Positions 2,750-55,503 of a stretch of DNA of 64,000 nucleotides are shown here, piece after piece. Where the stretch lies: contig NZ_VDCS01000003.1 of assembly GCF_006265225.1 (NCBI RefSeq), forward strand, positions 124,001-188,000. Reading direction: 5' to 3'. Each line of letters opens with the position of its first letter. Positions within the stretch are counted from its first letter, which is position 1. Position numbers and translations under genes: made by a program. Below the pieces are notes generated by a model, which saw only the letters and a list, made by a program, of their open reading frames with translations, had not been told where the DNA came from and ran no database searches. The stretch comes from Allotamlana fucoidanivorans (lineage in GTDB: Bacteria > Bacteroidota > Bacteroidia > Flavobacteriales > Flavobacteriaceae).

Positions 2750-2868
2750 AATTTATTTTTAAACCGTCTTTTATTTAGTTCAAAATATATGGGCCTCTGT
2801 TAACGGCTTCTTTTATCTTATCTTTAATAGGAATTAAAGTTCTCTTTTAAATTTTATATACATTCTTA

Positions 2869-5598
2869 TTAATATTTATTTCCGAATTTTAAAACATCTG
2901 GCAAAATATCTGATTGCTCAAAAAAGTCTATCTTTCCAGTATCCGACTTTTCCATAAAGAGTGTATTCCCAATTAACTTTGCTGTTTTTATGTTTTTTCC
3001 TAATTCAACTTTCTTTGCATTTTGACCAGAAACTAAAGCACAAGTTTCATCGTTTGACACAATTTCAATAAATGAAGGTCTGTTGGGGTCTAATTCTACT
3101 TTTACTTTATAATCGCCAACCTCTGCTACTGTAAAATTTTTAGTTTGAATTACATCAACTTTAGTGGAGACCTCTTCCCCATTTGGAAGAATTTCAATTA
3201 TAGTTAAAAAGCGTGTTGACTTTAGCTTGTCTGTAGTTGTGAATGAACCATGCCACTGGTTTGGATAATTTTTGGCTCCATTACCCTGCCTACCTCTCCA
3301 ATCTAAGGCTGAACCACTAAAAAACTTATCTGTAACCATCGTTTCAACTGTATTTTCACATAATAATTGTGCATTTGCTCGTGCATGGGCATTTGATGTT
3401 GACAACTTATTATCGCCAATTTGCTCCATATTGTCTTGAGCATTTAGCTTAAAGGTCCAATGGATAGGTTCTTTAGCTTCCAATTCATCATAAACTATTA
3501 TGTGATTGGGGCGCAACATAGCTATATGTCTCCTGAAACGTGTTACTTCTGGATTACCATAACCATTGGCTTCAGTTACAGATATTCCTTCCTTTTCTAA
3601 ATAACTTTTTTTGGAAGATTGAACTCTATATATTCCTGAATAAGCATTTGAGGCATCACCAACCGTATAAGAAATTTTTCTTCCAGTTACAAAACGAGGT
3701 ACCCAACCATAACCTGATATATCTGTTGATTGGCCAAATCCATTAGCTAAAATGGTATTGTGAGCTCGAGAATGTTTAAAACTATAAACCTTATGCTTAT
3801 CTATTGAATTATAATGTCCCGTTCTCCAAAATAGTGGTTCACCGCCATAAGCGATATTAAATGCATTTTGTGCAGGATGGGCATGGTTTAATTGTCCAAA
3901 TGGGCAAGACCTAAAGTTGAGCAACAAATTTTTAGAAGGATTAACAAGGTCTGTATGCATACCTACATAACCTATATCTCGAAACAAAGCACTTAACTCT
4001 TTAGGTTGATCTACTTTTATAAAATCCGGATCTAATTTATTAGTATTCCATACTGATAACAAAGACCAGGGGGCTTCATTTTCTCCAACCTTATTAATAA
4101 ACCATTTTTTATCAATTCTCCCAGTTGTTTTTAATCTCCATTTATTCCAATAGTTATCGGCATGAATATGTGCTAATGCTTCAACTAAGTTATAGTGACC
4201 TGCTCCGTCGGTACCATTACCATCTCCAAATGCTAATCCTGGATTTCCAACTGGATTGGAATATGACAAGTATTTAGCTACATTTCTATACCAAGGATGG
4301 TTAAAATAATCATAACCCATAAGCTTACTCATTACCCATGGGGTATAAAGTAATTGCCTTTCATTGGTTCCAAAATACCCATTACCTCCATGCCATCCAC
4401 CATCATTTCTACTGCCCGCTGGATTTCTATACAACCACAATTCGTAAGCATACTCCAACCATAGCTGCGCTTCTTCTTTGTATGGACTTAAGACTATCGC
4501 ACTCATGAGTAATGTTTGCACTCCTGCCTGCCATAGATGAGCCTTATATGCAATATGTTCAGAAAACTCAAGTTGTTTATAAAAATTTAAGTAACCCTCT
4601 TTTTTATATTTAAAAAGTAGATTAACTATCTTGGTTTTCCATTCTTTATTCAAATCCTCTGAAAAGGCATCTAAAATAAGAGTCATTAATTTTATATGGG
4701 CTTCAAGTACAAAATCGTCGGGATATCCTGGATGTTTACCATATTCCATCATTACAGTATGAAACTCATTATCCAGTTTATAAAAATCCTCTAATCCTAT
4801 TCTTTTATACTCTTCGTTACCTGTTAGAAGGTAAGCCTTTAATAAAGATTCTATTCTATTTGCAAAACCCTTAAATTGTTTTAAGGTTGACAATTGAAAA
4901 AATCGAAACTTTTTATTTTCATAATCTTCCTTTAGAAGATTCGGATAAGTACTTTCATCTACTACTACTTTTACTTCTGGTCTAATATTTAATAGTTTTT
5001 TATAATTATTCAGAATACCCTCTTTAATTTCAGGTTGACTACTCGGTAATAAATTTCCAATTTCATCCTTTAATAATACTACATGAGGAGCTTTAGTACT
5101 AGATATACGTTTAATGACCTCATCTGGAGTAGGAGGGACTACCACTCTCTCATTGCCTGTAATAACAAAAGAGTACTTATCATTTGACCATTTAATATCC
5201 GCTGGAGTTGTATCTAATGTATATCCGTATTGCCAATACCAATTCCCTTTTTTCAAAACGCTATATGGGTTAAAGAATGACCAACGTTTTGCTTTACTTC
5301 TTATAACATCTTTCGTAAATGTAGAGTCTTGTGATAATTTGAAATAATAAAGTCTATGTCCTAACTCATTTTTATTTAACGGTATTCTAAAATGTAACCA
5401 AGGAGAATTTTCATCAACCATTCCCTGTGGAACTGGTGCCTCGAGAGTGTTATCATAAATAGAATGTTTTTTAATAGTTTTCTCAGAACCATTAATAATT
5501 TTAGCATTTTGACCATAAAAACTAATGCTAGCAAAAATTATCGTAAGTAAAAAAAATCTGTTCAAAAAAGTATGATATATTAATTTAGTCTTTTTCAT
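2869..5598 (-). CDS. Heparinase II/III family protein (DUF4962) polysaccharide lyase
   Basis: The 909-residue protein has a signal peptide (about 1-29), then a DUF4962-type N-terminal region with the motif PWLHFRIP, a helical toroid domain (about 200-520) and a C-terminal beta-sandwich. The motif NHAHPAQNAF near residue 570 matches the conserved NHxHxDxxxF region of heparinase II-like lyases, which holds a metal or catalytic histidine. These enzymes cleave uronic-acid polysaccharides by beta-elimination, usually in the periplasm. It sits 13 bases downstream of the GH36-like gene, so the two are co-transcribed. A uronic-acid-containing substrate for the locus is an inference from this family. 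Confidence 0.8.
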   Translation of the reverse strand: MKKTKLIYHTFLNRFFLLTIIFASISFYGQNAKIINGSEKTIKKHSIYDNTLEAPVPQGMVDENSPWLHFRIPLNKNELGHRLYYFKLSQDSTFTKDVIRSKAKRWSFFNPYSVLKKGNWYWQYGYTLDTTPADIKWSNDKYSFVITGNERVVVPPTPDEVIKRISSTKAPHVVLLKDEIGNLLPSSQPEIKEGILNNYKKLLNIRPEVKVVVDESTYPNLLKEDYENKKFRFFQLSTLKQFKGFANRIESLLKAYLLTGNEEYKRIGLEDFYKLDNEFHTVMMEYGKHPGYPDDFVLEAHIKLMTLILDAFSEDLNKEWKTKIVNLLFKYKKEGYLNFYKQLEFSEHIAYKAHLWQAGVQTLLMSAIVLSPYKEEAQLWLEYAYELWLYRNPAGSRNDGGWHGGNGYFGTNERQLLYTPWVMSKLMGYDYFNHPWYRNVAKYLSYSNPVGNPGLAFGDGNGTDGAGHYNLVEALAHIHADNYWNKWRLKTTGRIDKKWFINKVGENEAPWSLLSVWNTNKLDPDFIKVDQPKELSALFRDIGYVGMHTDLVNPSKNLLLNFRSCPFGQLNHAHPAQNAFNIAYGGEPLFWRTGHYNSIDKHKVYSFKHSRAHNTILANGFGQSTDISGYGWVPRFVTGRKISYTVGDASNAYSGIYRVQSSKKSYLEKEGISVTEANGYGNPEVTRFRRHIAMLRPNHIIVYDELEAKEPIHWTFKLNAQDNMEQIGDNKLSTSNAHARANAQLLCENTVETMVTDKFFSGSALDWRGRQGNGAKNYPNQWHGSFTTTDKLKSTRFLTIIEILPNGEEVSTKVDVIQTKNFTVAEVGDYKVKVELDPNRPSFIEIVSNDETCALVSGQNAKKVELGKNIKTAKLIGNTLFMEKSDTGKIDFFEQSDILPDVLKFGNKY

Positions 5599-17647: not shown

Positions 17648-20083
17648 TTAATTTATAGTTTCTGTATTATGGATGAAGGTGGTAATAGCTTCTTCCATGT
17701 TTTTTGTTTGTTCATATATGGCCATGATACGGTCATTTTCTCTGCCATCCGTGAGATAGGCAGCATAGACTTCTTTGGGTACTTCCAAGCGAAAAATGTT
17801 GCTTTCCTTTCCTATTTTGATAAAGATTTCGGTATACTTCCTATCGCCGGTTAGTTTATTTCGGATGGATTTTAATTGGTTTAAATCATGACTGGAAAGG
17901 TTAAGCCTCTTGGCTAAGGCTTCATAGCCTTTTTCGTTTCTTAGGCTATAAATGATCTGGGTGTTTTCCAAAATACTGGCCGATGTTGACGTATCTGGTA
18001 GTTGGTTGATGGATTGTAATATGATGCCGATGGCACCATTTTGCTTTCGTATGGCTTGGTAATAGAATTCTACACTCTCTAGCACATTTGAAAACTTCAA
18101 CTGTTTGGCAAATTCATCGAATAATATGATGCCTTTTTCCGAGCGGTTACGCCATATAGTGCGTTGGATGGCCGTTTTTATCAATTTCAGCATGACCGAT
18201 AAAATTTCTTTATTGTCTTTCACTTCATCAAGCTCAAAAACAATGAGGCGCTTGTCCTCTAGTTTATAAGTTTGGTCTTCACTTTCATTAAACAGAAAAC
18301 TATACAGTCCACCATCAACATATTCCGAAAGGATATGCAAAAAATTATAGACGCTAAAATCCGTCTCTCGTATATTAAGCTCTTTCAAAAGGCTGTCCTT
18401 TTTTTGATCTACGAAGGCATACAGTGAAGCTAAGGAGTGCTGTGAGCGAATGTGTTTATAGTAATGTAGCAGCACTTTTTTGATGGCTACCGTTTTGGCT
18501 TTGGATACCTCATGCCCTGCAGCCAATAATTCTAAAAGAAAAACAGCAAGGTCTTCCAATCGTTCGGGAGTCAAATCAGTTGCACTCGAAATATAAAAGG
18601 GATTGATGCCTAAATTTTTGCCTTGTTCATACCTCAAAATGGTATGGCGCTCAGGATAGAGTTTGGCAAACTTGGCATAAGAACCTCCCAAATCGATAAT
18701 AACCAGTCGTAGCCCTTGTTCAAAATATTGCCGAAGAATATTATTAGCTAAAAAGGACTTACCTTCTCCTGTGGGGGCAAAAATGGCAAAATTACGCGCT
18801 TTGATTCGCTTTTTATCCTCATCCCAAACATCTTTTAAAACCGGGATGTTAAACTGCCGGTCATTAAAAATGATGCCTTGCTCATCAGATTTGTAATTAC
18901 TGTTGTTGATGAATAAACACAAGGCATGTTTCAAATCGGTTACATACAGATCTTCATTTGAGAAATGGGTCGCAAAAAAGGGATAGGAATTTAAAATATA
19001 GTGTTTCCGTTCTTCCCCTTTGGGGTAATGTGGTACGATGTCTAACTCCTTAAATTCGCTCTTTATCCTTGAAGCTATTCGCTTTAAGGCTTTTTCTTCT
19101 TTACTCCAGAATACCACATTGAGATGCCCTCTAATAATTCTAGAATGATCGTCTTCATTAATTTTAGCAACAATGGCCTCAATCTTCTTTTTAATAACCT
19201 TATTTTGTGTGCCGAAGTTGGCACTCTTACTGAGTTCTTCAATTTTCTTCTCCAATAGTTTACGCCATTTGTGTTTGTCATCTAGATAAATGATGTGATT
19301 GATGATATGGTTTTGGTTGAGATTAAGGCCCAGTCCATCCAAAAAGCCCTGATGAAATACAAAGTCATCCGAAGTAAACTTATCATTGGTTTTACTACTT
19401 TGTACCGATTCTCCAAAGCACAACTCACTATTGATAGCTAATACATCAAAAATATGTTCGCCAATGGAGATTTTGACATTACCGCTTTCGCGTAGAGATT
19501 TTAATTGAATGTCGGTTGTAATCCCCGTATTGAAGCCATTGAAATAGGCATCGGTTAGACCATAAATTTGTTTGGCGTTTAACGGGGTTAATTGTACCGT
19601 CCTGCTGTTATTGATATATCCCACGGCATCATTTACAGATTCTACAAATTCTTGTACCTTATTATCGGTGGCTTGGAGATTACTTTTTACTGCTTTACGA
19701 AAAGGATTGGTAAACTTGGAGGCATTCAAGGTTTTATCTAATGGCAGAATAAAAAACAAGTAGCTGCTATGTTGTAAATAGTCACGTTCTTTAAAGTGTT
19801 TATGGGTGGCCTGTTGTAAAAAGGTTTGCTGTGGTAACTTGTCTACTGCATAGTGTTCTTTTTGATAGATGTCTTGCTTGTGAATTACCGTGCTTGTTGG
19901 TAAAGATTTAAAGGCTTGAAACCAGACGCTGTGTAGGTTTTCAAAATCTTGATCTGAAAGCGAATAGATCTCTGGTAATTCCACTTTATAAGCTAATACC
20001 ACATTACCATTACTGGCAAATACCATGTGCTTATCTATGTTTAATATGGGATAATATGACGCTATGTTTATGGTCTGCATCAT
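17648..20083 (-). CDS. traG: TraG family conjugation ATPase (VirB4-like)
   Basis: The 811-residue protein carries an N-terminal domain typical of VirB4 proteins (about 1-400) and a RecA-like ATPase domain. Walker A is APTGEGKSFLANNIL near residue 440 and Walker B is GIILFDEFAKQL near residue 654; IILQSINQLPD follows as a sensor-like segment. It powers pilus assembly and substrate transfer at the inner membrane. It overlaps traF upstream by 4 bases, so the two are coupled. Length is normal for the family, so it looks intact. Confidence 0.95.
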   Translation of the reverse strand: MMQTINIASYYPILNIDKHMVFASNGNVVLAYKVELPEIYSLSDQDFENLHSVWFQAFKSLPTSTVIHKQDIYQKEHYAVDKLPQQTFLQQATHKHFKERDYLQHSSYLFFILPLDKTLNASKFTNPFRKAVKSNLQATDNKVQEFVESVNDAVGYINNSRTVQLTPLNAKQIYGLTDAYFNGFNTGITTDIQLKSLRESGNVKISIGEHIFDVLAINSELCFGESVQSSKTNDKFTSDDFVFHQGFLDGLGLNLNQNHIINHIIYLDDKHKWRKLLEKKIEELSKSANFGTQNKVIKKKIEAIVAKINEDDHSRIIRGHLNVVFWSKEEKALKRIASRIKSEFKELDIVPHYPKGEERKHYILNSYPFFATHFSNEDLYVTDLKHALCLFINNSNYKSDEQGIIFNDRQFNIPVLKDVWDEDKKRIKARNFAIFAPTGEGKSFLANNILRQYFEQGLRLVIIDLGGSYAKFAKLYPERHTILRYEQGKNLGINPFYISSATDLTPERLEDLAVFLLELLAAGHEVSKAKTVAIKKVLLHYYKHIRSQHSLASLYAFVDQKKDSLLKELNIRETDFSVYNFLHILSEYVDGGLYSFLFNESEDQTYKLEDKRLIVFELDEVKDNKEILSVMLKLIKTAIQRTIWRNRSEKGIILFDEFAKQLKFSNVLESVEFYYQAIRKQNGAIGIILQSINQLPDTSTSASILENTQIIYSLRNEKGYEALAKRLNLSSHDLNQLKSIRNKLTGDRKYTEIFIKIGKESNIFRLEVPKEVYAAYLTDGRENDRIMAIYEQTKNMEEAITTFIHNTETIN

Positions 20084-38840: not shown

Positions 38841-38923
38841 ATAAATTCAAAAAAACTAAATCTTTTCCAATAATTCAATTTTTCTAGTTAGAAGAATTAC
38901 CTTTGACCAAACCTACGACGCGA

Positions 38924-39892
38924 ATGAACAGAAGCAAATATTTCGAATATGTAGATGAGAAAATCCACATACTTGCTCATAGAATTAATACCAGGGGGAA
39001 ACTTAACATTCTAAACCTGCACCTTCATTCGGAAAACTTCTATCTTCATTTTTTTAATTTACTTTTTGACTTTCAATTGGTTAATTTAAATAGTAGTGCT
39101 CAGAATGTTGAAGCAATTGACTTAATTGACCATAAAAACAAAATAATCTTCCAAGTATCAGCTACCTGCACGAAACAAAAAATAGAATCAACACTCACAA
39201 AAGATATTTTTAAAAAATACAAAGGCTATAATTTTAAGTTTATTTCCATTTCAAAAGATGCTACGGATTTAAGAACCAAAACATATTCGAATCCTCATTC
39301 TGTTCCTTTTAAACCTTCAGGAGATATTTATGATATTACATCTTTACTGAATATAATTCTCGGAGAAAGCCCAAAACGGCAACGAGAAATTTATGAATTC
39401 ATAAAAGATGAGTTAGGAGAAGATGTTGACATTGTTAAACTAGATAGTAATCTTGCCACGATAATAAACATTTTGTCACTTGAAAAGTGGGATGACTCTA
39501 ATAGCGATGATAGCTATAATAGTTTCGAAATAGATAGGAAAATTCAATATAATGAACTTGATGATGCAAGAGAAGTAATTGAAGAGTTTTGTGTATACTA
39601 TAAAAAAGTTGATGAAAAATATACAGAGTTTGATTTATTAGGCGCTAATAAGAGTAATTCTGTATTAAATTCGATTAGAAAGGAATATAGAAAACTTAAA
39701 AAAACGGATAACAAAGATGACGTTTTCTTTGAAACTATAGAAAGTATTAAAAGTAAAGTTCTTGAAAGTAAAAACATAGATGATATCCCTATTGACGAAA
39801 TAGAATTATGCATAGACATTTTAATTGTGGACGCTTTCATAAGATGTAAAATTTTCGAAAATCCAAAAAATTATAATTATGTTACTACCTGA
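38924..39892 (+). CDS. SMEK-domain protein with ABC-3C C-terminal domain
   Basis: From the ATG at 38924 (MNRSKYFEYVDEK) the product is 322 residues. Residues about 1-140 form a SMEK domain (KYFEYVDEKIHILAHRIN, AIDLIDHKNKIIFQVSAT), a nuclease-like effector domain with PD-(D/E)xK features (the D-x-x-D-x-K and QVS segments). The C-terminal part (about 210-320, ELCIDILIVDAFIRCKIFE) resembles the ABC-three-component C-terminal domain. This would be the effector of an ABC-3C conflict system. Its stop overlaps the next gene by 14 bases. A TTG start at 38903 is less likely. Confidence 0.78.
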   Translation: MNRSKYFEYVDEKIHILAHRINTRGKLNILNLHLHSENFYLHFFNLLFDFQLVNLNSSAQNVEAIDLIDHKNKIIFQVSATCTKQKIESTLTKDIFKKYKGYNFKFISISKDATDLRTKTYSNPHSVPFKPSGDIYDITSLLNIILGESPKRQREIYEFIKDELGEDVDIVKLDSNLATIINILSLEKWDDSNSDDSYNSFEIDRKIQYNELDDAREVIEEFCVYYKKVDEKYTEFDLLGANKSNSVLNSIRKEYRKLKKTDNKDDVFFETIESIKSKVLESKNIDDIPIDEIELCIDILIVDAFIRCKIFENPKNYNYVTT

Positions 39893-40103
39893 TAATATTC
39901 ATCCAGAAAATAGCATATATTATAATGCATCTCTTGCTTTAAAAATATTGCAAGAACACGGCAAACTAGATATGTTAGACTTATATCAAAAAATATCTAA
40001 AACAAAAAAAATATCATTTCCTGTTTTTATTTTGTGTTTAGACTGGCTTTATATAATCAACGTAGCAGAATTAAAAAAAGGAGAGGTTAAATTATGTTCT
40101 TAA
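39879..40103 (+). CDS. ABC-three-component system middle component
   Basis: This 74-residue protein has one winged-helix-like fold (YYNASLALKILQEHGKLDMLDLYQKI and FILCLDWLYIINVAELKKGEVKLC), the pattern of the small middle components of ABC-3C systems. It overlaps the SMEK gene by 14 bases and the ATPase gene by 10 bases, which shows tight coupling. It probably bridges the effector and the ATPase. Confidence 0.78.
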   Translation: MLLPDNIHPENSIYYNASLALKILQEHGKLDMLDLYQKISKTKKISFPVFILCLDWLYIINVAELKKGEVKLCS

Positions 40104-41806
40104 AATCACTTCAAATAATAAATACTAAGAGTTCCTCTATAATTCGTGATATTGAATTTCGTGATGGAATAAATTTGATTGTTGATGAGAGTAAAGGGAG
40201 TATCACGGGAAATAATATTGGAAAAACCACAGTTTTAAAACTTATAGATTTTTGTTTTGGAGCTAATAAAAGTAATATATGGCAAGACCCAGAAAATCCC
40301 AAAGAAGTATATGCTCTTGTAAAAGAATTTTTAATCGATAATGACGTTCTTGTTATTCTAACGCTTTCCGATACTCTTAATCCTAAAACAGAAACAGAGT
40401 TTGTAATTGAGCGTAACTTCCACAGTTCTAGAAAAACAGTTATAAGACGGATAAATGGAACTCAATACACAGATGATGAATTCGAAGATGTCCTTAAAGA
40501 ACTATTTTTTCCAAATCTTATAGCTGAAAAACCTAGTTTTAGACAAATTATATCTCATAATATTAGATATAAAGATTTGAGTATTAATAATACCCTAAAA
40601 ACACTAGATAAGTTTACTTCAGATGCCGAATACGAAACTTTATATCTTTATTTATTAGGCTGTGAATTTAATGAGGGTAATAAAAAGCAAGAGATTCTTC
40701 AGAACATACGTCAAGAAAGTAATTTTAAAAACCGGTTAGAGAGATTTCAAACAAAATCTGCTTATGAAACGACTTTATCTCTTATAGAAAATGACATTGA
40801 AGAATTACAAAACAAGAAGTCTAAATTAAACTTAAATGAAAATTTTGATTCGGACTTAAACAAACTCAATGAAGTTAAATATCGGATTAATAAATTGAGT
40901 TCAGAGATAAGCAAAATTAACATTAGAAAGGAGTTAATAATTGAAGCCAAGATCGAGCTTGAAGCAAATAAGTCAGAAATTGACCTTTTATAATTAGAGC
41001 AAATCTATAGTCAAGCTACAGACATTTTAGGGGAATTACAAAAATCATTCGAAAATATGGTAAACTACCATAATCAGATGATTTCAGAAAAAGCAAAATT
41101 CATTAATAACGAGCTACCAAATTTGGAGCAAAAACTTGAGAAAAAGAATCAAGAATTAAAAACACTACTAAGAGAGGAGGCTATATTATCTCAAATTATA
41201 GCCAAAAGCGATTCATTCGAAGAATTGGAAGTCTTAATCAGTGAGCTGACTGAAAAATATAGACTTAAAGGAGAGTATGAGAATACGATTCAACAACTAC
41301 AAGAAGTCGAGGACAATTTAAAATCCTACAATGACGAACTTGATGAAATTGATGATGCCTTATTCTCAGACGAGTTCGAAGAAAAAGTAAAGACTCAATT
41401 AAATAAATTCAATAAATATTTTTCATCTGTCTCTGAATATCTTTATGATGAAAAATATGCTTTGAAATATGAAAAAATCACCAACAGAAAAGGCCGGAAA
41501 TTATATAAATTTTCAGCATTTAACACGAATTTTAGTTCAGGTAAAAAACAAGGCGAAATATCTTGTTTTGATATAGCTTATATTCTATTCGCTCGTGATG
41601 AAGAAATGCCAAGTATGGACTTTCTATTAAATGATAAGAAAGAATTAATGCACGATAATCAATTAGTGAAGATTGCCAACTTTGTGAATGACAAGAATAT
41701 TCAATTCGTTGCATCAATACTAAAAGATAAATTACCTAGTGAATTGAATAATAAAGACTACTTCATTCTAGAACTATCTGAAAATGATAAACTTTTTAGA
41801 ATATAA
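40094..41806 (+). pseudogene. ABC-3C DUF2326-type SMC-like ATPase with one in-frame stop
   Basis: The reading frame at 40094-40993 ends in TAA, but the same frame continues at once for a further 270 codons to 41806. Together they give one 570-residue protein with a single interruption at 40991-40993. The N-terminal part has Walker A (GNNIGKTTVLKLIDFCFG near residue 40). The stop falls inside the coiled coil. The C-terminal part carries more coiled coil and the DUF2326-like ATPase half (ISCFDIAYILFARD). Such ATPases sense triggers and activate the effector in ABC-3C conflict systems. The two halves may be a dead gene, two separately translated chains or a sequencing error. Confidence 0.72.
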
Positions 41807-41962: not shown

Positions 41963-42307
41963 ATGTGTAAATATTTAGGACTAGATTTAGGTATAAACTC
42001 TATTGGATGGGTACTAGTAGATAATCAAGAATTAAAAAGTTATGGCGTACGAAGAATCAAAAGTAGCCAGCGTCTTGAGAAAAGAAATTTTCGTAGAAAA
42101 TATCAACGGGGTTTAGCAAAAATAAAAAAAGCCTTTTCTTCTAAATTAAGAACACTATTTACCAAAAATTATCGATTAACCTTATTGTCAATCTTAACTT
42201 TTGTATTATTTCTATTCAGTTTTATTTTTTTTGAATATTGGCAGCTATTTTTAAATCTTGGAATTGGAGGACTCATTTCAATTCTTTCTGTTGAAAAAAA
42301 AGTATAG
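41963..42307 (+). CDS. Mini membrane protein with Cas9-type RuvC-I and bridge-helix-like start
   Basis: The 114-residue product opens KYLGLDLGINSIGWVLVD, which closely follows the RuvC-I motif of Cas9, including the catalytic-type aspartate at residue 8. Residues 29-53 (VRRIKSSQRLEKRNFRRKYQ) are arginine-rich like the Cas9 bridge helix. Instead of the recognition lobe, HNH and RuvC-II/III, the protein has two hydrophobic helices (about 72-90 and 93-110) and stops. No CRISPR array or cas1/cas2 is nearby. It is 36 bases upstream of the FRG gene, likely one operon. It is either a remnant fused by chance to membrane helices or a genuine small family; nuclease activity is not expected from RuvC-I alone. 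Confidence 0.72.
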   Translation: MCKYLGLDLGINSIGWVLVDNQELKSYGVRRIKSSQRLEKRNFRRKYQRGLAKIKKAFSSKLRTLFTKNYRLTLLSILTFVLFLFSFIFFEYWQLFLNLGIGGLISILSVEKKV

Positions 42308-42343: not shown

Positions 42344-43795
42344 ATGTCACAAACATACGAAGTCAAAAATATTGCGGAAGCATTAAAACTTGCCAAACAG
42401 TTTCAAAGAATAGAAAAATATAATTTATTTCGCGGACAGGCACAAAACTGGGAAGTTATACCTACAGCTGGGAGGCTTTCAAAAAAACAATTTGAAAAGT
42501 CTATAGAACAAATTGAAAGAATATTTACTTTTTTCAACATAGATAAAACATTAAAAAAATATTGTACAAATGTAGACTATTACTTCGCGATTGCTCAACA
42601 TTACGGCATCCCAACTAATTATATTGACTTTACACAAAGTATTGATGTTGCTTTCTATTTTGCCACTAATTCACAATCAAACAAAATTGGCGAATATTGT
42701 TCAATAATTTGTTTAAACGAATATGACTTTGAAGATTTTATTCAGATTATTAAAGTGTTATATGACAGAGAGAATGTTGTACCTTCTTACATCTCAAGAG
42801 TAGAAGTTGATAACTTATGGCGGTTACAAGCTCAAAAAGGCTGTTTTTTGTTCACGCCTTACCATCAAATTGAACAATACTATCCATTTGACAGAATTAT
42901 ATTTCCATATACAGAGTCTTATAATAAAATTAAAAAAGCTGACATATATCCAGAAAGAAAAAGTGAACTAGAAATCATTCTAGATGGTTTTTTTGATACA
43001 GAAAAACGGATTGAAGGTCTAAACAGGATAAATAATCTTGCAAAACAATTAAAATCCCCGATTATATCTATACCTAACAATAATCAGTATGAAATCTTGG
43101 AGAAAAAAGAAGTTCATAAAAGCTGGTATTCATATACTTATCAAAAATGGAAACACTCATTCAAGGAGGAATGGAAATCTTCTAAAAACGAAAAACAGAT
43201 TCAAATTCATATTCTACAAAAATTTGTTAATGACGAATTCATTGAAACTATTAAAGCCAATCTTACTAGAGAATTTAAAAATAAAAGAATAGATAAAAAA
43301 ACACCCCTAATTTTTGATTTTTCTGTCAAACCGATTTTATCTAAAAAAAATTCAAGAATTATTAGTGTAAACTGCAGAAATATTTGGGATGGAACAAGAA
43401 ATTTACCATACAGTATTGAAGATATTTTATCTATTTTAACCACATACTTGTCTTTGGAACTTCAAGACATTTTCACTCAAGATAGCGAAGAGTTAATACT
43501 ATTAGAAATGGCTAATAAATATGGAAGTCGTGTAAGATTTAAAACTAAAAAAAACAATATTATAAGCTATTTTAGGAATGATTTAAACGATATTATTTTG
43601 AAAAAACTTCCTCGTCCTATTCCTGCTGAATTACTACTACATTTAAACAAACCACGCTATGTGTTCGATTTTAAAAAACTTATTGAATTTTTCAAAACAG
43701 AAGCCATTGCTAATCAAGTCTTTTATAATAGAGAAAACAAATTTCCTGTAATTTTTTATACACCAGTTCAAATTGACATTTTAGGGTATGCCTAA
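42344..43795 (+). CDS. FRG-domain protein
   Basis: Starting at the ATG at 42344 (MSQTYEVKN), the 483-residue product has the FRG domain: YNLFRGQAQNWEVIPTAGR near residue 30 and FAIAQHYGIPTNYIDFTQSI near residue 85, followed by VAFYFAT. FRG domains are predicted effectors in anti-phage and toxin-type systems. The C-terminal half (about 240-483) has no family that I recognise and may bind a partner or sense infection. Upstream lies the mini RuvC-I membrane protein in probable operon, a pairing I do not know from described systems. Confidence 0.82.
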   Translation: MSQTYEVKNIAEALKLAKQFQRIEKYNLFRGQAQNWEVIPTAGRLSKKQFEKSIEQIERIFTFFNIDKTLKKYCTNVDYYFAIAQHYGIPTNYIDFTQSIDVAFYFATNSQSNKIGEYCSIICLNEYDFEDFIQIIKVLYDRENVVPSYISRVEVDNLWRLQAQKGCFLFTPYHQIEQYYPFDRIIFPYTESYNKIKKADIYPERKSELEIILDGFFDTEKRIEGLNRINNLAKQLKSPIISIPNNNQYEILEKKEVHKSWYSYTYQKWKHSFKEEWKSSKNEKQIQIHILQKFVNDEFIETIKANLTREFKNKRIDKKTPLIFDFSVKPILSKKNSRIISVNCRNIWDGTRNLPYSIEDILSILTTYLSLELQDIFTQDSEELILLEMANKYGSRVRFKTKKNNIISYFRNDLNDIILKKLPRPIPAELLLHLNKPRYVFDFKKLIEFFKTEAIANQVFYNRENKFPVIFYTPVQIDILGYA

Positions 43796-43902: not shown

Positions 43903-44388
43903 ATGAATATCTTAATAGAAAAATACAAAGGCATACACCCTGGGTTTGTTATTGAGCGCATATTAAAAAAACGTTCGATACGCCAACGCCCCTTTGCGCT
44001 TTCTATTAATGAGCATCCACAAACCTTAAATGCCATTACAAAAGGGCGTAGAAGTTTAAATACAGCTTTGGCCTTAAAAATAGAAGAAGTCTTAGAATTA
44101 GAGGAAGGCTCTTTAGCCCTTTTACAAACCTATTTTGATATTTCAAGAGCTAAAAACAAACAGCAAGCTGCAACACCTAATCTTTCAAAACTTAGAGCTT
44201 CTTTATTTTGGGACACTGATTACTCAAAAATTGATTGGAAAAAACAATACAGAGCAGTAATCAATAGAGTTTTTGATCGTGGCAATGAAAATGAAAAACA
44301 AGAAATTAGCAGATTTTATGGTAAGAATACCATTAATGCTGTATTAAACTCAAAACTTAGAAAGCCTTACACCGTTTCTAGTTTATAA
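43903..44388 (+). CDS. HTH antitoxin-like protein (HigA-like plus DUF6922)
   Basis: The 161-residue protein has an N-terminal helix-turn-helix like HigA/plasmid-maintenance antidote proteins (IHPGFVIERILKKRSIRQRPFALSI and TLNAITKGRRSLNTALALKIEEVLEL) and a C-terminal DUF6922-type segment (LFWDTDYSKIDWKKQYRAVINRVFDRG). It lies 9 bases before the AbiEii-type gene, so it is the expected antitoxin and repressor of a toxin/antitoxin pair. Confidence 0.82.
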   Translation: MNILIEKYKGIHPGFVIERILKKRSIRQRPFALSINEHPQTLNAITKGRRSLNTALALKIEEVLELEEGSLALLQTYFDISRAKNKQQAATPNLSKLRASLFWDTDYSKIDWKKQYRAVINRVFDRGNENEKQEISRFYGKNTINAVLNSKLRKPYTVSSL

Positions 44389-44397
44389 TGTACTTCC

Positions 44398-45051
44398 TTG
44401 ATGCTATACTATAATACAGTAAATAAATTGCTCCATGACAGTCTTTTAAAACTAATGGCTTCAGAGGTATTCAACGATTTTAGATTGGTAGGTGGTACTG
44501 CGCTTAGCTTACAAATTGGGCATAGAGCATCTATAGATATTGACCTTTTTAGTGATGCCCGTTATGGTTCTATTGATTTTAAACAAATTGATACCTATCT
44601 AGGATCTAATTTTAAATATGTTGATTACCCGAAGAACATTGAGCCGGGTTTGGGAAAAGCATATTTTATTGGAACTGACCAGACAAACTCTTTAAAACTA
44701 GACGTTTTTTATACAGACAGCTATATACAACCACCTATAATTGAAGATGGTATTCGGTTGGCTACTATTGAAGAAGTCATAGCCATGAAATTGGATATTA
44801 TACAAAGAGGAGGACGAAAAAAAGACTTTTGGGATTTACATGAACTTCTAAACACCTACAACATTGAACAGATGTTAAAATTACACGAACAGCGTTATCC
44901 CTATAACCATGACCGAGAATTAATTCTTAAAAATTTTGTAGATTTCGATTTAGCAGATAATGACTTTGACCCCATTTGCTATTTTGGCAAACATTGGGCT
45001 TTTATTAAAGAGGATATTACTGACAAGCTAGAACGCTTTAAATCAAGGTAA
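44398..45051 (+). CDS. AbiEii/AbiGii-type nucleotidyltransferase toxin
   Basis: The 217-residue protein has the nucleotidyltransferase signature FRLVGGTALSLQIGHRASID followed by IDLF, with the acidic metal-binding residues of the DxD type. It also has the typical mid-region IATIEEVIAMKLDIIQRGGRKKD with conserved KLDI and KDFWDL. AbiEii toxins modify tRNA or other targets with nucleotides and stall growth after infection. With the upstream HTH protein it makes a type IV-like toxin/antitoxin unit at the right end of the defence island. Confidence 0.9.
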   Translation: MMLYYNTVNKLLHDSLLKLMASEVFNDFRLVGGTALSLQIGHRASIDIDLFSDARYGSIDFKQIDTYLGSNFKYVDYPKNIEPGLGKAYFIGTDQTNSLKLDVFYTDSYIQPPIIEDGIRLATIEEVIAMKLDIIQRGGRKKDFWDLHELLNTYNIEQMLKLHEQRYPYNHDRELILKNFVDFDLADNDFDPICYFGKHWAFIKEDITDKLERFKSR

Positions 45052-45150: not shown

Positions 45151-46599
45151 TCATTTTCCCGCTTCAAACATCCTTCTTATATCTGAATGAATTTTTTGAA
45201 AATTGATATCCAGATCATCAACAGAGTAGCTTTTTAAAACAGGTGGTTTTTCTTTTTTCATTTTCAATAATCTGAACTGCACTTTGCGGTCTTTACCATC
45301 GGCGAAGACGACAAACTGCCCTGTTTTTAGCCTAAAGAACTCATTGGCTCGGCGCTTGCTAACCTCTTTCTCGCCTTTGGTTATTCTGCTATTAAAATTC
45401 CAACTGCTATCCTTACTCACACTTCTAGTAGGTTTAGTCACAATTTCAAAGAAGCTTTCATAGTATTTGGCGGTATCGGGGTCATTGGCTTTTCCAAAAA
45501 ACTGATACGACAAATTGCTAATTATCGCTCTACTGGCTTTATCGCCGTAGAGCATATCGTTCTGAATTTTATCCTGCATCACATATACAGTGGTAATATC
45601 ATAACTCCTTAAGGTAGCTGGTATTCTGTGCATATGCAACAGTTTGATGGTTGGTGCTTCTTCCATAAGAATAAAAGCCGATGCTTTGCCACGTTCACTC
45701 ATTTGCTTCACCACCGTATGTATGACCATAGCTATTACTGGTGCAAAGGTTGTTTCGTATTTGGGATGGTTAGATATGGCGATAATTCCCTTATTCTCGG
45801 TATCATTGACATTTAGTGGCACTTCATCGGCTGACAATGCCATAAATAATTGGCGAGTGCTTAACTTTTTTAGTGCATTGGATAAAGTACTGCGCACCCC
45901 TGCAGTTTGTTTCTCGGAATCTACACCGTGTAAAAAAGCACTGGCCATAGCTCTTGAGGTTATGTTGGTGTTTAAAAACTGTACGAGCCCATCTTTCTCT
46001 AAATACTGAAATAGAGCTATCACATGGGGTAAGGTACAATACTGCGGATAATAGCTACGTAGGTTCCAAATAACTCCTGATAACAGCCCTTCAACGGCAT
46101 CTGAGAAAAATTTATGGCTCCCCGAAGATTCAGAACTGTGCTGTTCAAGTAAATTTTCCATAAGTACTTTGGTAACCTCAAGAACGCTTTCTTCATTGGA
46201 CAGGTATTTTGGTGCTATAGGATTAACTCTGTAATATAAAGTATCAAAGGCTATGGTGTATAGGGTGATGCCATTGGCGTGACATAAAGGATATACCAAT
46301 TCCGTCAATTCCAAATCTTTGTAATCGTGTACAATGCCACAAAATTTGTGTTTTGTAAAATGCTTTAAGAACTGATAGATGACACTTTCGGTTTTACCGC
46401 TTCCTGCTGAGCCAATGATACAGGAACCTCGTCTAATATTCGCAATCTTCAATCGCCCTGATAGGAGCTGAAATTTCATTTTGTATTTCTTGTGAACTTT
46501 AGCGGTATTTCCGTCCCAAAACAGCAAGTATAGTAGCATAATTATACATGCTATGGGTAATGCATAGATTATCATATTTTGTAAGATGGGGTCTTTCAT
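45151..46599 (-). CDS. VirD4-type coupling protein (TraG/TraD family)
   Basis: The 482-residue protein has an N-terminal membrane helix (about 10-28), Walker A in CIIGSAGSGKTESVIYQF near residue 66 and Walker B in SAFILMEEAPTIK near residue 315. This is the VirD4 family that hands relaxase-bound DNA to the secretion channel. The Bacteroidetes mob version is about this length. It overlaps mobB by four bases and ends the mobilization operon, convergent with the toxin gene. Confidence 0.9.
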   Translation of the reverse strand: MKDPILQNMIIYALPIACIIMLLYLLFWDGNTAKVHKKYKMKFQLLSGRLKIANIRRGSCIIGSAGSGKTESVIYQFLKHFTKHKFCGIVHDYKDLELTELVYPLCHANGITLYTIAFDTLYYRVNPIAPKYLSNEESVLEVTKVLMENLLEQHSSESSGSHKFFSDAVEGLLSGVIWNLRSYYPQYCTLPHVIALFQYLEKDGLVQFLNTNITSRAMASAFLHGVDSEKQTAGVRSTLSNALKKLSTRQLFMALSADEVPLNVNDTENKGIIAISNHPKYETTFAPVIAMVIHTVVKQMSERGKASAFILMEEAPTIKLLHMHRIPATLRSYDITTVYVMQDKIQNDMLYGDKASRAIISNLSYQFFGKANDPDTAKYYESFFEIVTKPTRSVSKDSSWNFNSRITKGEKEVSKRRANEFFRLKTGQFVVFADGKDRKVQFRLLKMKKEKPPVLKSYSVDDLDINFQKIHSDIRRMFEAGK

Positions 46600-47633
46600 A
46601 TTTCAATAGAACCAGAACGCATGGCCCTGGTTAATCCTTTTTTAAGTTGTTTCACAATTTTAGCCGCAAGCTGCGCTTGATTTACTGGTATGGACGGTAA
46701 TTTGGTTTGTATGCCTGCTTCTCTGAGTATATGAAACCCCAGTGCCCGCTGTTTTGGTGTCATTTGCCACAGTTGTTTCAAATAAACATCTGGTTGTTTC
46801 AACAATGTTTTTCTCGCTTTATATTGCTCGACATAATGGCGTTTATAATTAAACTGTTTGTCAAATTGTTTTTCTGCCTTTTGATAAAACCTATCCCTAT
46901 CGAAGCCTCGTTTTACAAGCTTGCCATTTAACTCAACGGTTGAGGCTTTGTATTTGCTGCCTGGAGACAGGCTATAGCGATTGGATTGATCTTTGCGGCT
47001 CATAATAATATGCACATGGGTTTGCGCCCCTGCTTTGGGCATACCAGCTTCAATCATTTTACCATTTAGCTTATGAGGGGCTGTAGCTCTAGCCTGCTCA
47101 ATGGCTTGTTGCTTTGCTTTTACACTACCTGCCATTTCATTGCGTTCAATCTTAACAATATGGTGTTTGAGCTTCGCAATTTTAGCGATGTACTTTTGGT
47201 TTTCCCGAACCGCTTTATCCGTTCCTTTATAACTACGGCTATATTCGATTTTTGCAAAGTATTTTAAATCCTTTACCGTTATGGCGCGTCCTTCAATTTC
47301 CCGATGGAATGAGGCGGCATAGGCTTTCATTAACTCTCGGGTGTAGGCTTTTAAATCTTTGGTATGATTTTTTAAAGCCGATAGCTCACGTTGGCTCGGA
47401 TTAATGGTAATGGAATAGAACTTAGGTTCATGCTTGTGCAGCTTTTTGGTATTGGCATCAATATCGGTAATGACCTGAAGACTAGTAATTCCGTCATTAT
47501 CCTGATTAAAAAAATAGGCTTCGTCGGCTTCTAGGCCATAGTTATCGTTCTCCTTTTCCAGATACTTAACAAAGTCTGAAACGCTTTGCAGATAGCTACT
47601 TCCTGTTTTTTGTGGGCTTATGGTTAGATACAT
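46596..47633 (-). CDS. mobB: MobB relaxase-type protein (DUF5712)
   Basis: The 345-residue protein fits DUF5712/MobB. The N-terminus has MYLTISPQKTGSSYLQSVSD; QTHVHIIMSRKD in the middle carries the HxH pattern of relaxase metal ligands; the C-terminus is basic. It should nick at oriT and lead DNA transfer. It overlaps the BfmA/BtgA gene by 38 bases and the coupling-protein gene by four, so the three are translated together. Confidence 0.88.
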   Translation of the reverse strand: MYLTISPQKTGSSYLQSVSDFVKYLEKENDNYGLEADEAYFFNQDNDGITSLQVITDIDANTKKLHKHEPKFYSITINPSQRELSALKNHTKDLKAYTRELMKAYAASFHREIEGRAITVKDLKYFAKIEYSRSYKGTDKAVRENQKYIAKIAKLKHHIVKIERNEMAGSVKAKQQAIEQARATAPHKLNGKMIEAGMPKAGAQTHVHIIMSRKDQSNRYSLSPGSKYKASTVELNGKLVKRGFDRDRFYQKAEKQFDKQFNYKRHYVEQYKARKTLLKQPDVYLKQLWQMTPKQRALGFHILREAGIQTKLPSIPVNQAQLAAKIVKQLKKGLTRAMRSGSIEI

Positions 47634-54219: not shown

Positions 54220-55503
54220 TCATACGATACGCAAATGTCCTTTTTTTATCTCCTTATGTTTTGAATTCTTTTTTGATTTGGACTTCAATTTCAATCTTAA
54301 CTTGTTCATATCCTGACTGATTTTCTTCTCTACTACTCGTGCGTATCGCTGCGTAGTTGATAATTTAGTGTGTCCTAGTAGTTTTGATACCGTTTCTATA
54401 GGCACTTGATTTAAAAGTGCTACCGTTGTTGCAAAGGTGTGTCTTGCAACATGGAATGTTATATTCTTTTCTACGCCACAGCTTTTAGCAATGACTTTAA
54501 GATATTTATTCATTTTTTGGTCACTATATACAGGTAGTAAAGCAAAATTATTTTGGTTATTTGGATAATTCACGTAGGTATCTAAAATTGCTTTAGCTTC
54601 ATCTAATAGTGGAATCTTTGTTGCTATTCTCGACTTTTGTCGTCTCAAATTCAGCCATTGTTCCTCATCAATTCCAGTCACTATGTTTTGTACTGTAAGT
54701 TGCTTAACATCAATGTAAGATAGTCCTGTATAACAAGAAAATACAAATACATCTCTAACCAATCGCATGCCCGGTTTTTCAATTTCAAGGTTCTTAATGG
54801 CGTTTAACTCTTTTTGGTCTAAAAAAGGACAATCGTACGCTTCAAACTTTAGTTTATAGGAGGCAAATGGATGCACTTTTATCCAACCATGATTTGTAGC
54901 TAGGGTCATAAATTTCTGTAAACGCTCCATATGCTTCATAATTCCATTATTTTTTAATGGCTGCGATTTCACTAGTGGGGTGCAATTACGCAGGTAATTA
55001 TCAAAGTTTACAATAAAGGAATAATCCACATTTGTTAATAGTAAATCCTCCGTTTTATAAACTTCTTTTATAAAACGATTTAGGTATTTTTCGGTTGCCG
55101 CATAATTTTTTGCCGTGCCTTTGGCTAATTTTTTTAATTCATGTTCTCTATGATATCGTACAATGTCGTTTAACGTTAACACCGCCTTGTCTTTACCTAA
55201 AAAACGTGATTTTACTGCCTTTGCAGAAATTACCCTGCCCTCCTCTATTAGTTGCTTATATGCGATTTTAATTTTTGCTTGAATATCATCAAGGGCATTA
55301 TTGATGACTTTAGCATACTTAGTACGTGATTTTACACGAGCTCTTTCTAGATTCCAGTGCTCCTCTAAAACAGCTTCTTTGGTACTGATATCAACAGGCG
55401 AACTGTCAATCCATATGCGCGCGTAGATTGGGATAGTACCATCATTCTTGATGGACACTTTTTTTAACCAAAAATGAACATTTAATGTGTGTGTTGTTCT
55501 CAT
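54220..55503 (-). CDS. int: Tyrosine recombinase / integrase of the element
   Basis: The 427-residue protein has an N-terminal Arm DNA-binding domain, a SAM-like domain (about 110-220) and a C-terminal catalytic domain. Catalytic residues visible are HVARHTFAT (HxxR near residue 353), LGHTKLSTTQRYARV with the Tyr nucleophile near 386, and a lysine between. The first Arg position has Ser (CYTGLSYIDV near residue 260), as known for IntDOT of Bacteroidetes. It ends near a tRNA-Pro gene, with GACAC repeats in between. It performs excision and integration. Confidence 0.93.
   Translation of the reverse strand: MRTTHTLNVHFWLKKVSIKNDGTIPIYARIWIDSSPVDISTKEAVLEEHWNLERARVKSRTKYAKVINNALDDIQAKIKIAYKQLIEEGRVISAKAVKSRFLGKDKAVLTLNDIVRYHREHELKKLAKGTAKNYAATEKYLNRFIKEVYKTEDLLLTNVDYSFIVNFDNYLRNCTPLVKSQPLKNNGIMKHMERLQKFMTLATNHGWIKVHPFASYKLKFEAYDCPFLDQKELNAIKNLEIEKPGMRLVRDVFVFSCYTGLSYIDVKQLTVQNIVTGIDEEQWLNLRRQKSRIATKIPLLDEAKAILDTYVNYPNNQNNFALLPVYSDQKMNKYLKVIAKSCGVEKNITFHVARHTFATTVALLNQVPIETVSKLLGHTKLSTTQRYARVVEKKISQDMNKLRLKLKSKSKKNSKHKEIKKGHLRIV

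Follow-up and report, generated by a model that had tools for sequence, protein, structure and literature searches.

The stretch of DNA analysed here, referred to as the window, comprises 64,000 nucleotides (nt) of Allotamlana fucoidanivorans (contig NZ_VDCS01000003.1, positions 124,001 to 188,000), and the subject of this article is a short gene within it, an ATG-started frame of 114 codons with a TAG stop at 41963-42307 on the forward strand. Together with 15 relatives, its product makes up a conserved family of 16 members, 93-121 amino acids (aa) in length and common in layout, in which the first RuvC strands of Cas9 are followed by a basic linker and a two-helix hairpin, and which is found on mobile elements, in most cases with defence or toxin genes nearby. 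That such a family of Cas9 stub and hairpin proteins is real can be regarded as virtually certain. The features of the short gene are as follows:

41963..42307, forward strand: short gene, 114 aa, Cas9 RuvC-I stub followed by a membrane hairpin (Cas9 model matches, frame translation)
41963..42055, forward strand: residues 1-31, RuvC-I strands of Cas9 type, LGLDLG..SIGW, predicted three-strand sheet (Cas9 models, AlphaFold2)
42062..42181, forward strand: residues 34-73, arginine- and lysine-rich helix resembling the start of the bridge helix of Cas9 (alignment, AlphaFold2)
42182..42304, forward strand: residues 74-114, two-helix membrane hairpin (hydrophobicity, AlphaFold2, family model)

The N-terminal part of the protein is recognised by several Cas9 models. 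The NCBIfam model TIGR01865 matches residues 4-55 with 29.3 bits (E 2.6e-7), short of the 100 bits that it sets as the cut-off for a whole Cas9, while the PADLOC Cas9 model covers residues 2-71 with 33.9 bits (E 2.5e-9), and of the proteins with a solved structure Campylobacter jejuni Cas9 (5x2g, E 0.0036) matches best. When the protein is aligned with the starts of 12 full-length Cas9 proteins, Asp 8 coincides in all 12 with the RuvC-I Asp, which is catalytic in Cas9, and the arginine-rich residues 37-53 fall on the bridge-helix region. Towards the C-terminus lie two hydrophobic stretches, 74-90 and 94-110, and AlphaFold2 predicts strands at 2-8, 13-20, and 23-31 and helices at 34-88 and 90-113 (mean pLDDT 83.2, pTM 0.40). 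These results bear out what the first-pass annotation, made from the letters of the window, had read there, namely a RuvC-I pattern with an Asp at residue 8, an arginine-rich stretch like the bridge helix, and two membrane helices with which the protein ends at residue 114. A scan against Pfam gave nothing significant for the protein (best E 0.0052, far under its cut-off), PHROGs gave zero matches, and no hit at or below 0.001 was returned by Foldseek with the predicted fold, the top one being C. jejuni Cas9 at E 0.17. The rows of VIA-align on the same fold were mostly helix-hairpin look-alikes, with Staphylococcus aureus Cas9 (SaCas9) at Z 2.7.

The relatives were collected by profile searches. 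A profile built from the window protein and Cas9 starts was run over genome contigs, and among the best 80 of the 233 relatives that it matched there were 2 short forms, both of 100 aa and belonging to Flavobacterium frigoris and F. cellulosilyticum; the two frames have a Cas9-like start as in the window protein and share the hairpin motif, which reads YWQLFLN at residues 92-98 of the window protein and mostly NWQFWLN in the other members. Four further short frames (L086, L100, L103, L125) lack this motif and were judged by eye to be truncated or broken cas9 genes. The resulting three-member profile brought up full-length short forms in 14 of the 398 genomes searched from the genus of Flavobacterium frigoris, the first two included. 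A DNA pattern of the hairpin motif picked out 16 stretches in viral contigs, one of which (L227) encodes a member of 108 aa with the Cas9 start, and a profile scan of the viral contigs recovered the contig of L227 and no other contig.

Other searches yielded no further short form. The window protein alone found none in the viral contigs, nor in the genome contigs, and tblastn gave partial matches only, whether the window protein was compared with plasmids and phages, two Flavobacterium members with plasmids and one with phages, the G930 protein with plasmids, or the G820 protein with phages (handles of this kind tell the members' genomes and loci apart). All partial matches in plasmids and phages that carry a gene name are cas9. 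Of the unannotated ones, three records were rejected as short forms, a Phocaeicola plasmid match and a faecal phage match being parts of frames of 1504 and 1370 aa, respectively, and a Pasteurella plasmid match sitting beside cas1 and cas2. In the wider family, neither the window protein, run against 299 genomes, nor the family profile, run against 259, brought up an additional short form. At the level of the class, a Cas9-start profile was applied to 395 genomes and seven of the weak or short-frame matches were examined, of which G453 proved to be a broken cas9, G762 a sequence gap, and G710, G474, and G663 contig ends, while G497 and G666 have no open frame bearing the motif. A match outside these seven, in G727, lies in a frame of 438 aa.

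Two other Cas9-like fragments were observed. In G1099 (L189, 3721-3810), a 29-codon frame has the exact RuvC-I start with nothing following it, which gives it the look of a remnant. In L062, a contig of a metagenome-assembled genome (MAG) of Chitinophagales (JAATFC010000091.1), the frame 2789-5575 reads by eye as an alanyl-tRNA synthetase and contains, in frame, approximately 47 residues that read as Cas9 RuvC-I together with a basic stretch (VLGLDLGTNSIGWAIIDEEK...KEQRR, match at 4001-4162); this segment may be a real insertion or an assembly artefact.

Fourteen positions, in the numbering of the window protein, are identical in all 16 members (M1, L5, G6, L7, D8, G10, S13, I14, G15, W16, D20, L75, W93, and N98), and a further six (L9, A17, N92, F95, W96, and T102) are identical in 15, the window protein being the exception at every one of them but L9. 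TIGR01865 matches all 15 members scanned, L227 lying outside that set, with a best E of 8e-17. The RuvC-I part alone cannot separate Cas9 proteins from the short forms, and with the whole family model full-length Cas9s reach up to 60.9 bits against 53.7 for the window protein. The hairpin was also evaluated by itself. A hairpin model that did not include the window protein gave the C-terminal part of that protein 17.3 bits, whereas 999 scored shuffles gave at most 8.8; when 3020 frames of the loci were scored with the hairpin model, the 14 members of the model reached at least 60 bits and the window protein had 15.0 (E 0.0029), with the best non-member staying at 9.5 (E 0.15). Judged by these sequence scores, the hairpin of the window protein is homologous to those of the other members, independently of the Cas9 part. 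What the members have in common is the strand motif of RuvC-I together with the hairpin in the membrane.

Signs of selection were sought in 22 pairs within three subgroups, with the window protein and G930 left out. The ratio of replacement to silent changes per site (dN/dS) ranged from 0.16 to 0.72, silent changes per site outnumbering replacements in 22 of 22 pairs. In every pair, the first 20 codons also had a lower dN than the remainder, although 20 codons are few, the pairs share ancestry, and dS in the stub is likewise lower in many close pairs. The three G1117 pairs are the clearest (stub dN 0.12-0.15 versus 0.51-0.61 in the remainder), with stub dS values of 1.4, 3.2, and not computable, meaning silent sites near saturation or beyond.

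These data bear directly on the possibility, raised in the first-pass annotation, that the gene is an accidental remnant, which would make it the 5' end of a decayed cas9 that was joined by accident to a hydrophobic frame. Searches do turn up cas9 genes that are broken or truncated, as in G453, and the 29-residue frame of G1099 is remnant-like; against this stand the 15 relatives that share the hairpin, the dN/dS values, and the homology test made without the window protein, which render an accident highly improbable. The same annotation had proposed that the absence of short homologs, or the presence of only decayed pseudogenes, would reveal a chance remnant, and the opposite was found, so that its alternative suggestion of a small family is the one that has held.

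Between stub and hairpin, just two of the 16 members, the window protein and G930, retain the long arginine-rich helix, from which it follows that most members have shed the guide-RNA-binding part of Cas9; in the remaining 14 a short basic linker of 21-27 residues contains 7-10 lysines and arginines. For this reason nucleic-acid sensing is not a feature that the family shares, and the earlier idea of a membrane sensor of nucleic acid is not supported; the short linkers would also be explained by the positive-inside topology of membrane proteins. Across all members the linkers contain 7-16 lysines and arginines and 0-2 aspartates and glutamates, a bias that suggests a cytoplasmic location of the stub.

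In the window, the short gene is borne by a conjugative element, as indicated by a TraG-type ATPase, a coupling protein, a DUF5712 protein, and a tyrosine integrase on the same stretch. The surrounding features are as follows:

17648..20083, reverse strand: TraG-type conjugation ATPase, mobile-element gene
38903..41806, forward strand: ABC-three-component defence genes upstream of the short gene (SMEK-CTD10, MC6, ATPase with DUF2326; Pfam, PADLOC)
42344..43795, forward strand: FRG-domain protein, 36 nt downstream of the short gene (Pfam FRG E 1.7e-15; PADLOC PDC-S15 E 1.3e-23)
43903..45051, forward strand: HigA-like/DUF6922 and AbiEii-type genes downstream (Pfam, NCBIfam)
45151..47633, reverse strand: coupling protein for conjugation (T4SS-DNA_transf) and DUF5712 protein, both mobile-element genes
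54220..55503, reverse strand: tyrosine integrase of the mobile element

The cargo follows a one-strand order, in which the SMEK, CTD10, MC6, and DUF2326 genes are succeeded by the short gene, the FRG gene, the HigA-like gene, and the AbiEii-type gene, and the spacing of 36 nt makes it probable that the short gene and the FRG gene are co-transcribed. The ATPase of the ABC-three-component genes is split into 40094-40993 and 41057-41806, two frames in the same phase with a stop between them (40994-41056), and is probably a broken gene.

The first-pass annotation had seen no other Cas9 domain, CRISPR array, cas1, or cas2. This stands for other parts of Cas9 in the window, where no second Cas9 match was found, but not for the genome as a whole. 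A search of the genome for Cas9 returned, besides the window protein and one weak 11-bit match on a third contig, a full-length gene of 1402 aa on another contig, followed by cas1 and cas2 (recognised by eye) and accompanied by an array of ten repeats of approximately 46 nt at a spacing of 75-76 nt. Over their alignment, the window protein is 41% identical to the start of this host Cas9, and the short gene is therefore no recent copy of the host cas9.

The presence of a full-length Cas9 with an array in the host is one of the points in favour of an anti-CRISPR derived from a fragment of cas9, in which the membrane-tethered RuvC-I segment would compete with the Cas9 of a recipient, misassemble it, or draw it to the membrane, allowing the element to survive entry. 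Small size, residence on conjugative and integrative elements, and Cas9 ancestry fit this explanation, and a precedent is offered by AcrIB3, described in a review as a Cas5 homolog that displaces Cas5 (PMC13131331). It fits less well that defence and toxin genes adjoin the short genes, with no recognised anti-CRISPR locus, though no search for one was made, that the RNA-binding helix is lost in 14 of 16 members, and that W93 and N98, present in all 16, suggest a role of the membrane part beyond tethering. An inhibitor of this kind is a possible but unlikely answer.

In 13 of the 16 loci, at least one neighbour matches a defence or toxin-antitoxin model or is homologous to such a gene. Apart from the window, the annotated neighbours are as follows:

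G790: AbiEi/AbiEii
G1047, G977, and, by homology, G909: type I restriction
G1033: type IIG
G1007: SIR2
G1067: dCTPase model
G1010, G1117, and, by homology, G1144: Schlafen/AlbA_2
G930: kinase matching the PD-T4-6/mad6 models
L227: MksE-type condensin gene

The condensin-like operon of L227 was considered as a Wadjet system and rejected, having Pfam matches to MksE and, weakly, MukB, and no PADLOC match at 1e-5. Eight loci lie on one common backbone (families F1 and F2), five of them with integrase-family genes, and four on a topoisomerase/DUF3945 backbone; both shared backbones are taken, partly by inference, as mobile elements. Recombinases or conjugation genes are present at the window, G930, and L227 loci, and no mobile-element gene was seen in the 9-kb stretch of G909. 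Upstream of the short gene, approximately 100 nt of non-coding DNA ahead of the start codon are similar in G820, G846, G1117, G1123, and partly G1010/G1144 (L183-L186, L175, L176), and may hold a promoter or regulatory element. A small peptide or RNA encoded there was considered and rejected, as the reverse-strand frames are not conserved and the alignment with the region upstream of the window gene is unconvincing.

Several short genes have a neighbour at very close distance. In six loci the short gene lies 6-14 nt downstream of an AbiEii-like gene (E 2.5e-4 in Pfam, narrowly under the cut-off), in four it lies 8 nt upstream of a UPF0489-like gene (E 3.3e-5, under the cut-off), and in G930 it lies 18 nt upstream of a DUF6994 gene. 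At G790, G1010, G1144, and L227 there is no tight neighbour, the upstream gaps being approximately 170-213 nt. In G1033 (L178, 8419-9183), the AbiEii-like neighbour is in two frames and the short gene is intact.

Homologs of two of these neighbours were traced to other genomes. One other FRG homolog occurs among 397 genomes (G096), 84 nt upstream of a different small two-helix protein (L049, 1665-1979; helices seen by eye) that is unrelated in sequence to the short family. UPF0489-like homologs occur in three of 247 genomes, two with the short gene and one (G832) without it, where the gene is preceded by a protein of 146 aa that has, as seen by eye, a hydrophobic helix at its C-terminus (L214, 1406-1846).

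Such spacing, including the 36 nt to the FRG gene in the window, could mean that the short protein is a membrane partner that anchors, restrains, or executes for the adjacent toxin, the Cas9 piece being merely an interaction module. The pairing of the FRG and UPF0489-like homologs of G096 and G832 with different proteins that have hydrophobic helices agrees with this, although partner swapping rests on small numbers, one FRG homolog and three UPF0489-like ones. On the other side, four of the 16 loci have no tight neighbour, the partner genes are mutually unrelated, the AbiEii and UPF0489 matches fall under the Pfam cut-offs, and the unchanged catalytic-strand motif of Cas9 is left unexplained. 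A partner role ranks as doubtful, to about the same degree as an inhibitor.

A decoy mechanism, in which a two-helix membrane effector carries a captured Cas9 stub as its sensor, is a guess that is here held tentatively. The basic linker would hold the stub on the cytoplasmic side, and a phage or plasmid factor directed against the conserved N-terminus of Cas9 would bind or alter it; the triggered hairpin might then oligomerise, damage the inner membrane, and stop the infected cell, with the threshold perhaps set by the partner enzyme encoded alongside (AbiEii-like, FRG, UPF0489-like, or DUF6994). The decoy is slightly preferred, the anti-CRISPR and partner readings being nearly as likely, for two reasons. 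An unchanged Cas9 surface that precedes a conserved membrane hairpin and is surrounded by defence genes is in keeping with a bait. There are also precedents, in that Panoptes pairs a mini-Cas10 with a two-helix effector (PMC12657230) and the phage protein AcrIIC2 grips an N-terminal fragment of Cas9, having been co-crystallised with only residues 16-77, which comprise the bridge helix and a portion of RuvC-I (PMC6594998).

Several observations weigh against the decoy. AcrIIC2 binds the bridge helix, which 14 of 16 members lack, and no anti-CRISPR is known to bind the RuvC-I strands alone. The closest pair, G1010/G790, does not have a lower dN/dS in the stub, and no convincing defence gene was found among the few neighbours scanned at G820, G1123, and G846, where in G846 the upstream gene looks by eye like a metal-transport ATPase. 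Cas9 matches occur in at least six of 14 carriers versus at least 118 of 384 other genomes (Fisher p 0.38), which is no enrichment; an anti-CRISPR would also be expected to show no association with a resident Cas9, as its element must enter other hosts. The Pfam RuvX model matches 14 of 15 members (best 5.4e-5) and RuvC four of 15, weakly, matches that are expected since the RNase H fold is shared. The hairpin matches to known two-helix effectors, which favour the decoy as far as they go, are weak and too poor to count as membership, SLATT_4 being matched by five of 15 members (best E 0.02) and Cap15_TM by one of 15 (E 0.087). In its fullest form, the decoy reading describes a guard with Cas9 as bait, a membrane-killing effector that would sense Cas9-disabling proteins of phages and plasmids, act independently of any array, and spread by conjugative elements; in this form it is possible but unlikely.

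No description of a membrane-fixed Cas9 fragment was found in the titles and opening lines of abstracts of open-access PMC papers, and captured pieces of Cas proteins have so far been known as inhibitors and signalling enzymes. If the decoy reading is true, bacteria guard Cas9 as plants guard their immune targets, and if the anti-CRISPR reading is true, a Cas9 inhibitor has been made from Cas9 itself; a gene of approximately 300 bases is enough to test both readings.

The short family can be placed among known systems as follows. With Cas9 it has the first approximately 31 residues in common, and the arginine-rich helix only in the window protein and G930, whereas the REC, RuvC-II, HNH, RuvC-III, and PAM domains of Cas9 are missing from these proteins of less than 125 aa, which have a membrane hairpin instead. 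RuvX and RuvC resolvases, which have the RNase H fold, share the GxDxG motif of the first strand, but the match to Cas9 is far stronger and reaches W16, and the remainder of the RNase H fold is absent in the short family. IscB and IsrB carry an N-terminal PLMP domain ahead of RuvC-I, unlike the window protein, which has just four residues before the motif; no IscB or IsrB model was among its Pfam, NCBIfam, and PADLOC matches, the presence of such models in these libraries being unchecked. The two-helix hairpin weakly recalls, in matches below significance, that of immunity effectors with two transmembrane (TM) helices (SLATT_4, Cap15/2TM-beta), from which the family differs by the soluble Cas9 stub in front, and Cap15/2TM-beta has a beta-barrel after the helices, whereas the window protein ends after the helix 90-113. 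Cas-homologous anti-CRISPRs, AcrIB3 and others, are alike in being Cas-derived genes on mobile DNA (PMC13131331); the short family is Cas9-derived and membrane-bound, and only a candidate inhibitor. Among the neighbours scanned no mCpol was listed, and no search aimed at mCpol was made. Panoptes itself couples a mini-Cas10 (mCpol) to a two-TM effector (2TM-beta) that kills when a phage anti-defence acts (PMC12657230), and it is like the short family in logic only, a shrunken piece of a CRISPR effector together with a two-helix membrane protein, the short family being one fused protein, derived from Cas9 rather than Cas10, in which no nucleotide cyclase is seen.
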